A stretch of 5,079 bases of DNA, taken from a bacterium (lineage in GTDB: Bacteria > Blakebacterota > Blakebacteria > Blakebacterales > Blakebacteraceae). Both the position numbers and the translations under genes were made by a program. The notes beneath the pieces are model-generated. The model saw only the letters and a program-made list of their open reading frames with translations, ran no database searches and was not told where the DNA came from. Location of the stretch: assembly GCA_025774205.1 (NCBI GenBank), contig JALGWK010000461.1, positions 1-5,079 of the forward strand, given 5' to 3'. Position 1 is the stretch's first letter. Each line of letters opens with the position of its first letter. Shown one piece after another: positions 42-5,079 of the stretch.

Positions 42-1130
42 ATGATACCTCGAGATGAGATCGTCAGCTGGCTCAGGGAGACCGATCCCTCACGACTCGA
101 TTCACTGTGGTCTGTCGCTGACGATGTGCGGAGAATCCATGTGGGGGATTCTATCCATCTGCGCGGGATCATCAACTTCTCCAACAACTGCGTGCGACGC
201 TGCACTTATTGCGGGATCAACGCCGACAACAGAGGCCTGAGAAGATACCGCATGAGCACCACCGAGATCATGGAGTGCGTACGCTCGTTCGAAGAGCTGT
301 CGCTGATGACGGTGGTGCTCCAGTCGGGTGAGGACCGGTTGGTCACCAGGTCCTGGGTGGCAGAACTCGTCGACCGGATCAGACAGGAGACCGGCCTGGC
401 GGTCACGCTCAGCCTCGGTGAACGACAGGAGGAGGAACTCTCCGAGTGGCGGGCGGCGGGGGCAGAGCGATACCTGCTGAAGATCGAGACCTCGAACCGG
501 CTGCTGTACGAGTCGATGCAGCCTGACCGCAGGAACGCCTGGACCTCCCGGATGGAGGTACTCAGGACACTCCGATCACTTGATTATGAGGTCGGGACCG
601 GGATCATGGTCGGTATCCCGGGGCAGACCCATGAGATGCTGGCTGACGATCTGGTTCATTTCGGCGAGTTCGGTCCCGACATGATCGGAATCGGTCCGTA
701 TATCCCGCATCCTGCCACTTCGTTACCCTCTGTTCCTCATGACCGCACTGATCAGGTTCCCAACGATCTGGTGACGACTCTGAACGTGCTTGCGCTGGCG
801 AGGATGATCTGTCCGGACGCTAATATCCCCGCCACAACAGCGCTCCTGAGTATCGGTCGACGCAGAGACCTGAAGGTAGGATTGTCAGGGGGGGCGAATG
901 TCATCATGCCCGATCTCACACCGCCAGAATACCGCCAGCTGTACGACATCTATCCGACACGGCTCTCACCCGGCCAAGGTGATCTGTTGCCGATACAGGA
1001 GGCGATCGCTTCGATGGGGCGGAGCATCAGCGAAGACAGCGGAACCTCGTTGCACTATCTCAAGTGTAGAGAGGCCGAAGGCGGAATTCCGGCCGGATCG
1101 ATCCGACACTTGCAGGAACTGACCGAATGA
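42..1130 (+). CDS. hydE: HydE, [FeFe]-hydrogenase H-cluster maturation radical SAM enzyme
   Basis: This 362-residue protein is a complete HydE, close to the family's usual length of about 350. The radical SAM motif CX3CX2C is seen at Cys50, Cys54 and Cys57 and would hold the [4Fe-4S] cluster that cleaves S-adenosylmethionine. Further family signatures are VLQSGED, VTLSLGER, MVGIPGQT, IGIGPYIPHP, NIPATTA and GGANVIMPDLTP, which line the TIM barrel. HydE is known to act on a HydG-derived iron-cyanide-carbonyl precursor while the 2Fe subcluster is built in the cytoplasm. The optional second CX7CX2C cluster motif of some HydEs was not seen. The start is ATG 42, with AGGA at 29-32 nine bases upstream. 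The frame is open to the left edge, so a longer form cannot be formally excluded, but the N-terminus looks normal. The stop overlaps the hydG start in ATGA. It is the only one of the three maturase genes here that is intact. Confidence 0.96.
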   Translation: MIPRDEIVSWLRETDPSRLDSLWSVADDVRRIHVGDSIHLRGIINFSNNCVRRCTYCGINADNRGLRRYRMSTTEIMECVRSFEELSLMTVVLQSGEDRLVTRSWVAELVDRIRQETGLAVTLSLGERQEEELSEWRAAGAERYLLKIETSNRLLYESMQPDRRNAWTSRMEVLRTLRSLDYEVGTGIMVGIPGQTHEMLADDLVHFGEFGPDMIGIGPYIPHPATSLPSVPHDRTDQVPNDLVTTLNVLALARMICPDANIPATTALLSIGRRRDLKVGLSGGANVIMPDLTPPEYRQLYDIYPTRLSPGQGDLLPIQEAIASMGRSISEDSGTSLHYLKCREAEGGIPAGSIRHLQELTE

Positions 1131-2504
1131 GCGCCGGGCGGCGGCTATCCGGGGGAGCGGTGGATTTCATCGACGATGCCGGGCTGGCATCACTGCTCGA
1201 GCAGACCTCCACCGGGGATCCAGGACGATTCCGGGAGGTGATCGGAAAGAGCCTCGACCGACAAGCGCTCACCCCCGGGGAGACCGCTGTCCTGATCGGG
1301 GCAACCGCGCCTGAGCAGATTGAGGAACTATTCGCCGCCGCCAGGCAACTGAAGCAGGACGTCTACGGCAACCGGATCGTGCTCTTCGCCCCGCTCTATA
1401 TCGGGAACGAGTGCGTCAATAACTGCCACTACTGTGGTTTCCGCCGCGACAACGATGAGATGCACCGGCGCACCCTCACTCCCGATGAGATCGCCAGACA
1501 GGTCATCAGCCTGGAGGATACCGGCCACAAACGTCTGATCATCGTCTTCGGTGAGCATCCCGCCTACGATGCCGGCTTCATCGCCGACACGGTCAGAACC
1601 ATCTACGGGATCAGGGCTGGCCGTGGAGCGATCCGCCGTCTCAACATCAACGCCGCCCCGCTCTCTACAGAGGGATTCAGGCTGGTGAAGGAGGCGGGTA
1701 TCGGCACCTACCAGATATTCCAGGAGACCTACCATCACGAGACCTACGCCCGGGTCCACCCGGCGGGGACTCTCAAGCACGACTACCAGTTTCGTCGGGA
1801 TCGGCGTTCTCTTCGGTCTGTACGACTGGCGATTCGAGGTGTTGGGGCTGGTATCGCACGCCCTCTACCTGCAGGATCGCCACGGGGTCGGACCCCATAC
1901 GATCAGCATCCCCCGCCTCCAGTCCGCCTCCGGTGTGACTATGGATGCAACCTGGACCGTATCTGATGACGAATTCAGGCGGGTGGCAGCGATCGTGCGA
2001 CTGGCGGTACCGTATACCGGTATCATCCTGACGGCCCGAGAGGCGGAAGACGTGCGCCGAGCCGTCATGTCCTTTGGCATCTCGCAGATCGACGCCGGAA
2101 GCAGACTGGAGATCGGCGGTTATGAGGAGCTGGGTGACGCGCAGCAGATCATCCAGAAAGAGCAGTTCCAGCTGGGAGACATGCGCTCCCTCGATGAGGT
2201 GATCAGGCAGCTGCTCGAAGATGGTCAGATCCCCAGTTTCTGCACTGCCTGTTACCGGATCGGCCGGACGGGTGAGGCCTTTATGGAGTACGCCATTCCC
2301 GGTTTCATCCAGCGGTTCTGCACACCCAACGCGATCCTGACCCTGGTCGAGTACCTGACTGATTACGCCTCTGATGAAACGGAGAGAACCGGGTGGGAAC
2401 GACTGCCGGGATTCCTCGATCAGGTGGACCCTGGTATCAGGCCTCACCTCATGGAGAAGATCACCCTGATCAGAGACAGGGATGAAAGGGATCTGTACTT
2501 CTGA
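1127..2504 (+). pseudogene. hydG: HydG, tyrosine-cleaving radical SAM maturase, frameshifted by an apparent internal deletion
   Basis: HydG is a radical SAM lyase that splits tyrosine into p-cresol and the CO and CN ligands of the H-cluster. The N-terminal part (1127 to about 1795, 223 codons) carries CX3CX2C at Cys96, Cys100 and Cys103, then VFGEHPAYD, LNINAAPLS and TYQIFQETYH. The C-terminal part runs in the +1 frame from about 1794 (VGIGVLFGLYDWRFEVLGL onward) to TGA 2502-2504. It keeps the auxiliary-cluster motif CX2CX22C (codons at 2241, 2250, 2319) and the typical RDLYF end. Family proteins have about 15 more residues between HDY-Q-F-R and VGIG, so a loss of about 44 bp fits both the missing residues and the frame change; restored length would be about 473, normal for HydG. 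Uninterrupted translation would instead give a 279-residue product ending at 1966. The start overlaps hydE in ATGA, with AGGA at 1114-1117. Identity is certain; whether the break is real or an assembly error is open. Confidence 0.93.
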
Positions 2505-2507
2505 GTC

Positions 2508-3645
2508 ATGCAGGATACTCCCCGTGGAATGAGGCTGCAGATCGGTATCGTCGGCAGAAGGAACACCGGCAAGTCATCCCTGCTGAACATGCTCAGCCGC
2601 CAGAGCATCTCGATTGTATCGCCGGAAGCAGGCACCACTACAGATCCGGTCTCCAGGAGCATGGAGCTGCTGCCTCTGGGGCCCGTTCTGTTCTATGACA
2701 CCGCCGGCCTCGATGATAGTGGAACGCTGGGTGAGAAACGGGTAGCGACCACGAAGGCGATCATCGACCGGCTCGATCTCGGGATCCTCGTAAGCGTCGC
2801 CGATCAATGGGATGCACTCGAAATCGAGCTGCTTGACGATTTCCACTCGCGGGGAATTCCGCTGGTGGTCGTCTTCAACAAATGCGACCAGGTATGCCCC
2901 GATGAATCGCTCACCATGAGCCTGCTGGAGAAGGGTGTTAAGGTGGTCGAAACCAGTTGTATCAGTCGGTCGGGGATCGAGGAACTGCGCGATGCGATGG
3001 TGCAGGCATTGGAGAGCAGTCCCGACCAACCGGGATCGATCACCTCGGGGCTGGTGGCTGCGGGGGACCTGGCTGTACTGGTGACCCCGATCGATCTCGA
3101 AGCGCCGAAGGGGCGCCTGATATTGCCCCAGGTGCAGACGATCAGAGATCTGCTCGACCATGGAGCATACTGCATGGTGGTCAAGGAGCATCAACTGGCG
3201 ACGGCCCTCGACAACCTGAGGGAACCACCCGTGCTTGTGATAACCGACTCACAGGCCTTCCGGCAGGTGGCGGAGACGGTCCCCCCGGAGATAGCGATGA
3301 CCTCCTTCTCCATCCTCTACTCCCGATTCAAGGGTGACTTCGAGACATCCGATCGGCGATGATATCGGTACGCAGAAGATCCCGGCTCTGCTGCAAAGGG
3401 TGGCGGGCGGTGATCTGTCTATCACTCATATCCAGGGACTCGATTTCCGCGCTCCACTGGAAGAACTGGAGGCCTTCAGTCTGGTTGTCCACTGCGGTGC
3501 CTGCATGCTGAACCGGAGGAACGTGCTTAGCCGAATCGAACGGTGCCGGGAAGCGGGTGTACCGATCACCAACTACGGGATGACGATCGCCTGGTGCCTG
3601 GGCATATTCGACCGGGCAATGAAACCATTATCTGACGCGCTGTGA
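2508..3645 (+). pseudogene. hydF: HydF, GTPase scaffold for H-cluster assembly, frameshifted by an apparent internal deletion
   Basis: HydF receives the 2Fe precursor from HydE and HydG and passes it to apo-hydrogenase. The N-terminal GTPase domain is intact: P-loop GRRNTGKS (16-23), TTT switch I (43-45), DTAG (64-67), NKCD (124-127) and a G5-like SCIS near 150. The dimerisation region follows up to about residue 279 (FKGDFE). The frame then runs into TGA 3360-3362. The next frame carries the C-terminal cluster domain from HPIGDDIG (cat at 3346) through HCGAC (3490-3504) and PITNYG to TGA 3643-3645. About 26 family residues are missing at the joint, including the CxH part of the conserved CxH...HCxxC cluster-binding motif. 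A 77-bp loss fits both the residue count and the frame, and would restore about 404 residues. ATG 2508 is chosen because the MQDTPRGMRL leader resembles known HydF starts. It lies 3 bp after the hydG stop, and AAAGGG at 2485-2490 is rather far upstream. As written, the [4Fe-4S] site could not be complete. Confidence 0.93.
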
Positions 3646-3678
3646 CCAGGGTAACTGTTTGCGGCATATAAATATATC

Positions 3679-3722
3679 TGGCGGGCGATACCGGATTCGA
3701 ACCAGTGACTGCCTGCGTGTAG
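3679..3722 (-). tRNA. 3' half of a tRNA, probably tRNA-Val(UAC); 5' half absent
   Basis: Read on the - strand, this segment has a T arm ACTGG-TTCGAAT-CCGGT, a 3' acceptor strand ATCGCCC, discriminator G and an encoded CCA ending at 3679. Upstream of the T arm are a five-base variable loop (CAGTC), a 3' anticodon-stem strand GCAGG and the loop piece TACAC, which would place UAC (Val) at the anticodon. The partners needed for folding, CCTGC for the anticodon stem and GGGCGAT for the acceptor, are not found upstream where the 5' half should lie; that space holds the end of the GDCCVxC gene instead. The gene therefore appears truncated at the anticodon loop. It may be a remnant left by deletion or by a tRNA-targeting integrative element, or a partial assembly. 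It should not be functional as seen. The amino-acid identity is inferred from resemblance to known Val tRNAs. Confidence 0.6.
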
Positions 3723-3735
3723 TGATGTATTCGAT

Positions 3736-3936
3736 TCAGGATTGGTCCTGCTGCTTCATCGGGCAGTGGACATCACCATATGAACAGAACACGCAGCAAT
3801 CTCCATGGAGCGGCTTGAGGATGACACCACAACTGGTGCATTGATGGAAGAACACTCAGGTATCTACTGGCATTTCAAGGCATTCCTGAAAGCCACACTC
3901 CGGGCAGGTGAGGGTTGAATAGAATTCGGTTTCCAT
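3736..3936 (-). CDS. GDCCVxC domain-containing small (seleno)protein with in-frame UGA
   Basis: On the - strand ATG 3936-3934 opens a 66-residue protein if UGA at 3858-3856 is read through, ending at TGA 3738-3736. It begins METEFYSTLTCPECGF, has a CPEC pair at 11-14, Cys19, a CTSC pair at 33-36, and the family hallmark GDCCVFCSYG at 45-54 followed by Cys58. As I recall the family, members have Cys where residue 27 (UGA) lies here, in a context like D-A-C-x-F-F-x-x-C; the matching stretch here is D-T-U-V-F-F-H-Q-C. Reading through restores perfect family continuity without any frame change. A SECIS-like hairpin lies just downstream. The pattern of Cys pairs suggests metal or redox binding, but the function of the family is not known to me. 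An AGAGG ribosome site lies at 3951-3947, ten bases before the ATG. It is co-directional with the lipoprotein upstream. The alternative is a Cys-to-stop mutation or sequencing error. Confidence 0.85.
3821..3841 (-). promoter_or_regulatory. Bacterial SECIS-like stem-loop downstream of the UGA codon
   Basis: In the mRNA, AUGCACC pairs with GGUG-(U)-CAU, giving seven base pairs with one bulged U on the 3' side and a six-base loop AGUUGU. The loop begins 21 nt after the UGA and its second base is G. Both fit the published general pattern of bacterial SECIS elements (apical loop some 16-37 nt after UGA, G among the first two loop bases). The hairpin overlaps the codons of the conserved CTSCG residues, so part of the pairing could be coincidental. 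No energy was computed. Confidence 0.5.
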
Positions 3937-4021
3937 CTGTAAATAACCTCTATCCCTAAGGCACCCCCAGCGGGGGGTTAGTCTCACGGGTGGGCTAACT
4001 TCGGCCCGCGTCGGCTACCCG
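3937..4021 (-). other. Hairpin-rich spacer between lipoprotein gene and GDCCVxC gene
   Basis: This 78-bp gap (plus the lipoprotein stop) can form two strong hairpins. One pairs ACCCCC (3963-3968) with GGGGGT (3973-3978) around a four-base loop, extended by CTA/TAG at 3956-3958 and 3979-3981. The other pairs CGGGT (3987-3991) with ACCCG (4017-4021), enclosing GGGC/GCCC (3992-3995 and 4004-4007) with a nine-base bulge. Neither is followed by a T-run on either strand, so a simple intrinsic terminator is not supported. The structures could be an RNA-processing or attenuation element, or 5'-leader structure for the small gene. No known riboswitch class was recognised. Confidence 0.4.
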
Positions 4022-4412
4022 GTAGTGAAATAGAACACCATACCGTAGCTGCCATTGTGATGCTGCCAGCCCGGTCCCATCATGCTGCCCATTCCACCAC
4101 CCATCATACCTCCGCCACCATAGTTACCGAGCATCTGCTCAGTCACCCAATGACCGCCCATCCCCATACCAGCGGACCACTGGTGTCGCCTTCATGGAGA
4201 ACCGCATACATCTCCATTTCTGTGCCCATCGGGTGCGAAAACTCGATAGTGATCGAGGAATCCGGGTTCACACCGATGGCCCCTCCAACCGGAGTTACAT
4301 GCAGAAGAACCGGCTCATCTGCATCCTGTGGTTCAGAAGTGCTCTTGGTACAGGCGGTAAGTACGGCCAGCCCAAAGATCATGAAAGCTGGAAGGAGATA
4401 TCGGCGTGACAT
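4015..4412 (-). pseudogene. Ig-like-domain lipoprotein with Met/Gly/His-rich tail, frameshifted by an apparent internal deletion
   Basis: Starting at ATG 4412-4410, six bases after AAGGA (4423-4419), the protein has a lipoprotein signal peptide: MSRR, a hydrophobic stretch, and the lipobox LTAC with Cys21 as the lipidated residue. It should therefore be exported and membrane-anchored. After an acidic linker, VTPVGGAIGVNPDSSITIEF and SHPM look like the start of a bacterial Ig-like (Big_5 type) domain. This frame ends at TGA 4145-4143, just after SGPLV. The adjoining frame, read from about 4170 to TAG 4017-4015, continues with GMGMGGHWVTEQM, a tail with nine Met in 51 residues, and HHNGSYGMVFYF, matching what I recall of the C-terminus of such proteins. 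The middle strands of the Ig-like domain, perhaps 45-50 residues, are missing at the joint, and the frames differ. The Met- and His-rich tail suggests copper or other metal binding, but that is inference. Upstream in-frame ATG 4493 gives an implausible N-terminal extension before the signal peptide. Confidence 0.8.
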
Positions 4413-4562
4413 GCTTGTTCCTTTCCCTCTGTCTGATGAGATATGGCTGTTATCTCTCTGCTCACCGGTTGGTCTCTTATCCCTTACCGCCATTACAATC
4501 CAACTATCCCTATTTCAGTTCGGAGGCATCTGTGCTCTGCCATCTGACATTCGATCTTAAGG

Positions 4563-4568
4563 TATAAT
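4563..4568 (+). promoter_or_regulatory. Candidate sigma-70 type -10 box
   Basis: A perfect TATAAT lies about 209 bp before the usp start codon. The best -35-like hexamer upstream, CTGACA at 4544-4549, is only 13 bp away, which is too short for a standard promoter. The call rests on the -10 box alone. It would give usp a leader of about 200 nt containing the mini-ORF and the palindrome. Confidence 0.35.
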
Positions 4569-4597
4569 TACTGTTGCTGAGAGGAGCGGATAGAATC

Positions 4598-4618
4598 ATG
4601 CTCGTCATGAATCGTTAA
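4598..4618 (+). other. Six-codon mini-ORF with good ribosome binding site
   Basis: GAGGAG at 4581-4586 is followed eleven bases later by ATG and a frame reading MLVMNR then TAA. It lies just downstream of the TATAAT box, so a transcript starting there would carry it near its 5' end. It could be a leader peptide, or the surviving start of a gene lost by deletion, like the other broken genes here. It has no recognisable content and may be chance. Confidence 0.2.
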
Positions 4619-4681
4619 AAGCAACAAAGCCATTCTTCTGATTGACCGGGAGAGTCCGCTGGGATAGCACTACCTTACACA

Positions 4682-4707
4682 TCAGGATGAAAACGTGTTT
4701 TCCCTGA
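4682..4707. promoter_or_regulatory. Imperfect palindrome upstream of usp, candidate operator or leader hairpin
   Basis: GAAAAC (4689-4694) and GTTTTC (4697-4702) form an inverted repeat around GT. Outer arms TCAGG (4682-4686) and CCTGA (4703-4707) extend it, with two unpaired bases (AT) on the left. It ends 69 bp before the usp start codon. The dyad fits a dimeric repressor or activator site, or an RNA hairpin in the leader. It was not matched to a known regulator's consensus. Confidence 0.35.
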
Positions 4708-4776
4708 ATCAACTTCGCAGCAGGACTCCTGGCGGGTATTCTACTTCTAACATTCGGATTCTGAAGGAAATATGCC

Positions 4777-5079
4777 ATGAAATGCATCCTCACAACCGAC
4801 GGTTCAGAAGCCAGCCTGAAAGCCGTGACCTGGGCGGTTCAACACCTGCAGTTCGACGCCGAGACGGTACTGTTCCTGATCTATGTCTTCCCGTTGCCTC
4901 GCGACGTTGAAACCTATTCTCATCTGGTTTCACTTCCGAAGGATGCCTCCGATGAGCGGGTTGTTCAGATTTCTCAATCCGTTATGGAACGTACAAGGAA
5001 AGTTCTCGGAGATCTGGACGCGCAGGTACATGAGGTGACCCTGGTCGGCAATCCCGCTCAGAACATCGTGGAGTTCGCT
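4777..5079 (+). CDS. Universal stress protein (UspA family), 3' end cut by window
   Basis: ATG 4777, eight bases after AAGGA (4764-4768), opens a frame that stays open for 101 codons to the right edge. The N-terminus MKCILTTDGSEASLKAVTWA is the typical UspA first beta strand, with the conserved Asp8 that contacts the nucleotide in ATP-binding members, followed by helix 1. A long middle section of about 35 residues leads to DAQVHEVTLVGNPAQNIVEF, matching the fourth strand and the G-x-P-x-x-x-I motif. Family members are about 140-160 residues, so some 40-60 residues, including the Gly-rich ATP-binding loop, lie beyond the window. Whether it binds ATP therefore cannot be judged. These cytoplasmic proteins support survival under starvation, oxidative or respiratory stress. 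It is divergent from the lipoprotein gene and stands apart from the hyd genes. Confidence 0.88.
   Translation, partial: MKCILTTDGSEASLKAVTWAVQHLQFDAETVLFLIYVFPLPRDVETYSHLVSLPKDASDERVVQISQSVMERTRKVLGDLDAQVHEVTLVGNPAQNIVEFA

Follow-up and report, generated by a model that had tools for sequence, protein, structure and literature searches.

A probable selenocysteine codon in a small GDCCVxC-family (GOS_B) gene from a little-sampled bacterial phylum

The locus and its small gene

The stretch of DNA analysed here (the window) is a contig of 5,079 bases, on which a small gene on the minus strand has as its neighbours hydE, hydG and hydF, a lipoprotein gene and a USP-like ORF. The features of the small gene are the following.

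3736..3936, minus strand: probable GDCCVxC-family selenoprotein gene, 66 amino acids, ATG at 3936-3934, terminator TGA at 3738-3736
3895..3906, minus strand: first CxxC pair, CPEC, residues 11-14; invariant columns, probably zinc-ribbon ligands
3856..3858, minus strand: in-frame UGA, probable selenocysteine (Sec), residue 27; the aligned column is otherwise invariant Cys
3829..3840, minus strand: second CxxC pair, CTSC, residues 33-36; invariant columns, probably zinc-ribbon ligands
3824..3839, minus strand: bacterial SECIS-like hairpin, 5' arm 3839-3835, loop AGUUGU 3834-3829, 3' arm 3828-3824
3784..3804, minus strand: GDCCVFC signature, residues 45-51, seen in the translation, the NF041374 match and the invariant columns

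UGA is normally a stop codon, and a plain ORF listing gives only a frame of 43 amino acids (3856-3987) that ends at the internal UGA; standard gene callers would thus miss or split the gene, as the initial annotation had expected. When 3936-3736 is translated with TGA as U, one continuous protein of 66 residues results, METEFYSTLTCPECGFQECLEMPVDTUVFFHQCTSCGVILKPLHGDCCVFCSYGDVHCPMKQQDQS, after which comes TGA. The same annotation had placed GDCCVFCSYG in the second half of this protein and the UGA six residues ahead of the CTSC pair, and both are seen in the translation, where residue 27 lies six residues N-terminal of C33. The CTSC codons overlap the hairpin (3829..3840 and 3824..3839, both on the minus strand). 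The NF041374 profile, named GDCCVxC domain-containing (seleno)protein, matches the read-through protein with 92.8 bits (E 1.1e-26; curated cut-off 40 bits) over residues 7-63, on both sides of the UGA, which makes it untenable that the 66-residue frame arose by chance. A six-frame search of the host genome returned this single NF041374 locus (88.1 bits, with one TGA inside), and the sole Pfam match to the read-through protein was weak and under its cut-off.

The family is known from earlier work. The hypothetical protein GOS_B was one of seven new selenoprotein families described in 2008, with 11 Sec and 125 Cys sequences and no function given (PMC2398784), and a 2026 review lists GOS_B under NF041374 (PMC13188914). 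This mapping and the profile name bear out the statement in the initial annotation that the family includes selenoproteins. Our literature search found no paper under the name GDCCVxC, nor any on a GDCC hypothetical protein of the mer operon. AlphaFold2 modelled the protein with confidence (mean pLDDT 92.1) as a small fold that has a pair of short strands and a pair of short helices; a profile search related it weakly to the zinc ribbon 1qyp (E 0.0014), and Foldseek against the PDB gave no significant match (best E 0.38).

The Cys/Sec position and the downstream hairpin

Some 85,000 species genomes were scanned, and the 80 best relatives were retained. Among these, the codon aligned with the window UGA is TGC in 56, TGT in 23 and TGA in one, so that the proposed alignment of the UGA with a conserved family Cys holds and the suggested check of residue 27 in homologues, now run, returns Cys in 79/80 and UGA in 1/80. 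The invariant columns are C11, C14, C27, C33, C36, G45, D46, C47, C48, V49, C51 and C58, with column 27 being Cys except in the UGA forms. The sole TGA among the best 80 relatives belongs to L063, from a member of the Ardenticatenaceae (Chloroflexota), and a search of 400 genomes of its phylum yielded the further UGA members L123, L125, L127, L131 and L133, together with L129, which is L063's own gene. In the phylum search around L093, all matches over the cut-off were of the Cys form; one match of that search with a TGA, L147, scored well below the threshold and was not counted. Elsewhere in the phylum of L063, two GDCCVxC genes are adjacent (G148 C21:23550-23962), one being the UGA form L133 and the other having no internal stop.

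The window protein is 63% identical to the L063 UGA form and pairs with it in the tree (support 100/73; 53 columns, U coded as C). Three changes are needed to account for the UGA forms on this tree, which with so few columns can serve only as a guide. No second GDCCVxC copy was found in the family and phylum searches around the host genome (four genomes in the phylum), and the gene is absent from a genome of the same genus that is 82% complete.

If the UGA were a true stop, the gene would be a decaying pseudogene, and the broken appearance of hydG, hydF and the lipoprotein gene nearby would fit such decay. However, 3' of the UGA no invariant residue has been lost, whether in the second CxxC, in GDCCVFC or at C58, and the stop would have arisen exactly at the Cys/Sec codon of the family, which leaves decay a very slim chance.

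The initial annotation had also described a hairpin with a G in its loop after the UGA. It is present: it starts about 15 nt 3' of the UGA, has the core CACC/GGUG and the loop AGUUGU, and the G is at 3833. The UGA forms share a common register, with the 5' arm at offsets 19-23 from the U of UGA and the 3' arm at 30-34, and their loops are AGUUGU, AGUUGC or GGCUGC with G as the second loop base. The CxxCG protein motif by itself constrains the bases of the hairpin, and Cys forms were used as a control for that, i.e., 100 Cys-form relatives compared at the same spacing as the UGA-form hairpin. All five pairs are kept in 5/6 UGA-form sequences vs 2/100 Cys-form ones (Fisher p 1e-6, a value that ignores relatedness), and in 6/7 of the former when L131 is added. 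Both arms show compensatory exchanges among the UGA forms, A-U to G-C and C-G to U-A. The exception is L133, a UGA form on a long branch that does not keep the common register. Taken singly, the window hairpin is weak: its folding z is -2.1 when the 53 nt starting at the UGA are taken and -0.56 over 63 nt, pairing also occurs in about 21% of synonymous recodings (null 0.21), and an Rfam scan of the window gave no match. The support for this putative SECIS element is comparative.

Decoding capacity of the host and quality of the contig

The initial annotation implied that the genome has selA, selB, selC and selD, and asked for the machinery to be searched for; the search recovered all of them, with selA and selD split by contig ends. 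The host genome contains selB (313 bits, 343 with an in-frame neighbouring match), selA as two overlapping contig-end pieces on two contigs, a tRNA-Sec gene (65.9 bits; called tRNA-SeC with anticodon TCA by ARAGORN), and selD as contig-end pieces that are each under the cut-off. selB is also present in the same-genus genome. The N-terminal piece of SelD (L011, 1-276, minus strand) reads TRLTALVTCAG-UGA-ASKLGPEDLAK, and the position in CAG-U-ASK is the usual Sec/Cys site of SelD. With its UGA at the Sec site, selD is a second selenoprotein gene of the host genome.

A reassigned code, with UGA decoded as one of the ordinary amino acids, would likewise leave an open frame across the UGA, yet TGA terminates hydE and hydG in the window at the expected places, which indicates that UGA is not reassigned; the genome encodes SelB and tRNA-Sec, and members of the family have either Cys or UGA at this position. 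We consider the probability of such a code to be negligible.

The contig itself calls for caution. The host assembly consists of 527 contigs, is 85.9% complete and 4.84% contaminated. In the window, hydG ([FeFe] hydrogenase maturase, 1127-2504, plus strand) is spread over two frames and lacks profile positions 241-253 (about 12 positions; junction near 1790-1840), suggesting a short deletion or a misassembly, and hydF (2508-3645, plus strand) is also in two frames with profile positions 278-303 missing (about 25 positions; junction near 3340, in the region before HPIGDD). On the minus strand, 4493-4015 looks like a single frameshifted gene, made up of a lipoprotein-like ORF (4493-4143) followed by one rich in Gly and Met (4167-4015). 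Because of these apparent deletions and frameshifts in hydG, hydF and the lipoprotein gene, the single-base accuracy of the contig is not assured.

A sequencing or assembly error has to be weighed, in which the UGA stands for TGC or TGT and the true gene is an ordinary Cys form: TGA is one substitution away from either codon, and several indel errors seem to be present in the window. However, the disruptions seen are indels and not substitutions. The Sec-type hairpin, rarely retained among Cys forms, is retained here as in other UGA forms, the tree pairs the window protein with the UGA form L063, and the host encodes all of the Sec machinery and, in selD, a second UGA gene. An error at this codon is thus improbable, though it is the likeliest of the explanations that dispense with Sec.

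The region 3645-5079 has a GC content of 0.517 vs 0.598 for the hyd genes, and GC3 is 0.71 for hydE, 0.74 for hydF and 0.74 for selB, the composition being compared on individual loci. The GC3 of hydE and hydF fits that of selB, and the window contig therefore plausibly belongs to the bin. Given the fragmented and contaminated assembly and the lower GC of the gene region, it is binning that ties the GDCCVxC gene to the sel genes. Immediately downstream of the former is a partial tRNA gene (3724-3679, minus strand) that has a 3' half but no 5' half and ends in CTGGTTCGAATCCGGTATCGCCCGCCA, and a near copy of this half is present at a contig start (C65, 1 mismatch). This tRNA half and the GC drop from 3645 could mark the boundary of an integrated island or another assembly deletion.

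Selenocysteine is the reading that we prefer. Judged from sequence, that is, from the gene, the Sec/Cys pair, the Sec machinery and the comparatively supported hairpin, UGA 3858-3856 very probably encodes Sec in a small GDCCVxC-family (GOS_B) protein, with a probability of about 0.94. SelB with Sec-tRNA(Sec) would read this UGA as Sec, and the hairpin about 15 nt past it would direct the insertion. The locus is a plain example of a gene truncated by standard callers, and the sequence evidence for its selenocysteine forms an unbroken chain.

Possible metal handling and relation to known systems

The neighbourhoods of relatives suggest what the protein may do. GDCCVxC genes adjoin merB, merT, merP, merF or MerR-type genes at L040, L063, L082, L084, L093 and L141, and Cys-form relatives also adjoin merA-like genes. 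The L063 UGA gene lies close upstream of merB (249 bits, cut-off 193) and downstream of a gene for a MerR-family regulator, in a cluster that continues with merT-like, CopZ-like and merA-like genes. Among Cys forms, the order in L084 is merT-merP-GDCCVxC, in L093 the GDCCVxC gene directly precedes merF, and in L141 it is near merF. The calls of MerB in L063 and of both MerF are above their curated cut-offs, and those of MerT, MerP and MerR in L084 and of MerA are below them. MerR-family genes occur within 1 kb in 24/111 loci, at 1-2 kb in 2 and at 2-5 kb in none, although more sequence was searched there.

No mer gene was seen in the 5079-base window contig and a location in a mer operon was not found for the window gene; a metal role is thus carried over from relatives. 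On the strength of their neighbourhoods, the balance tips slightly towards mercury or some other thiophilic metal being handled by the protein. Its compact zinc-ribbon-like fold would be formed around CPEC and CTSC, with a zinc site likely held by the two pairs, and Sec27, the GDCCVFC cysteines and C58 would make up a reactive selenol/thiol site in which Sec27 may act as a high-affinity selenol. Such a protein could bind or transfer Hg(II), organomercury or some other thiophilic metal, or give protection against it. More tentatively, GDCCVxC/GOS_B may be an unnamed component of mercury/organomercury resistance in which Sec replaces a metal-contacting Cys in some Sec users.

Alternatively, the protein contains Sec but serves general thiol redox or zinc handling and not mercury or thiophilic metals. 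The 2008 description gives no function (PMC2398784), mer-type genes adjoin only part of the loci, and the window gene has hydEFG, a lipoprotein gene and a USP-like ORF around it; the concentration of MerR-family genes within 1 kb and the merB, merT, merP and merF neighbours of relatives speak against such a role, which we regard as a serious contender that falls somewhat short of even odds. The neighbourhoods provide the family, to which the 2008 description assigned no function, with one that can be tested, the handling of mercury or thiophilic metals, and if the more tentative reading holds, some Sec-using bacteria would have a selenol-based mercury-handling protein.

The window protein resembles zinc-ribbon proteins (the RPB9/TFIIS-like ribbon 1qyp, LysW and archaeal eS27) in its two CxxC pairs and short strands, but, unlike them, it has the additional site of Sec27 and GDCCVFC, and the relation is one of resemblance only. 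Its closest UGA form in the tree, L063/L129 of the Ardenticatenaceae, has its hairpin at the same offsets, with compensatory pairs, and differs in lying within a cluster of merR-like, merB, merT-like and merA-like genes, which the window gene does not. With NF041374/GOS_B the protein shares the length, CPxC, the Sec/Cys residue, CxxC, GDCCVxC and C58, as well as the placing of Sec at the variable Cys/Sec position and a SECIS-like hairpin downstream; it stands apart from them in that its gene comes from a little-sampled phylum, with four genomes available, and is outside a mer operon on its own contig. Since GOS_B is a known selenoprotein family, the window gene is a new member of it, and the family itself is not new.
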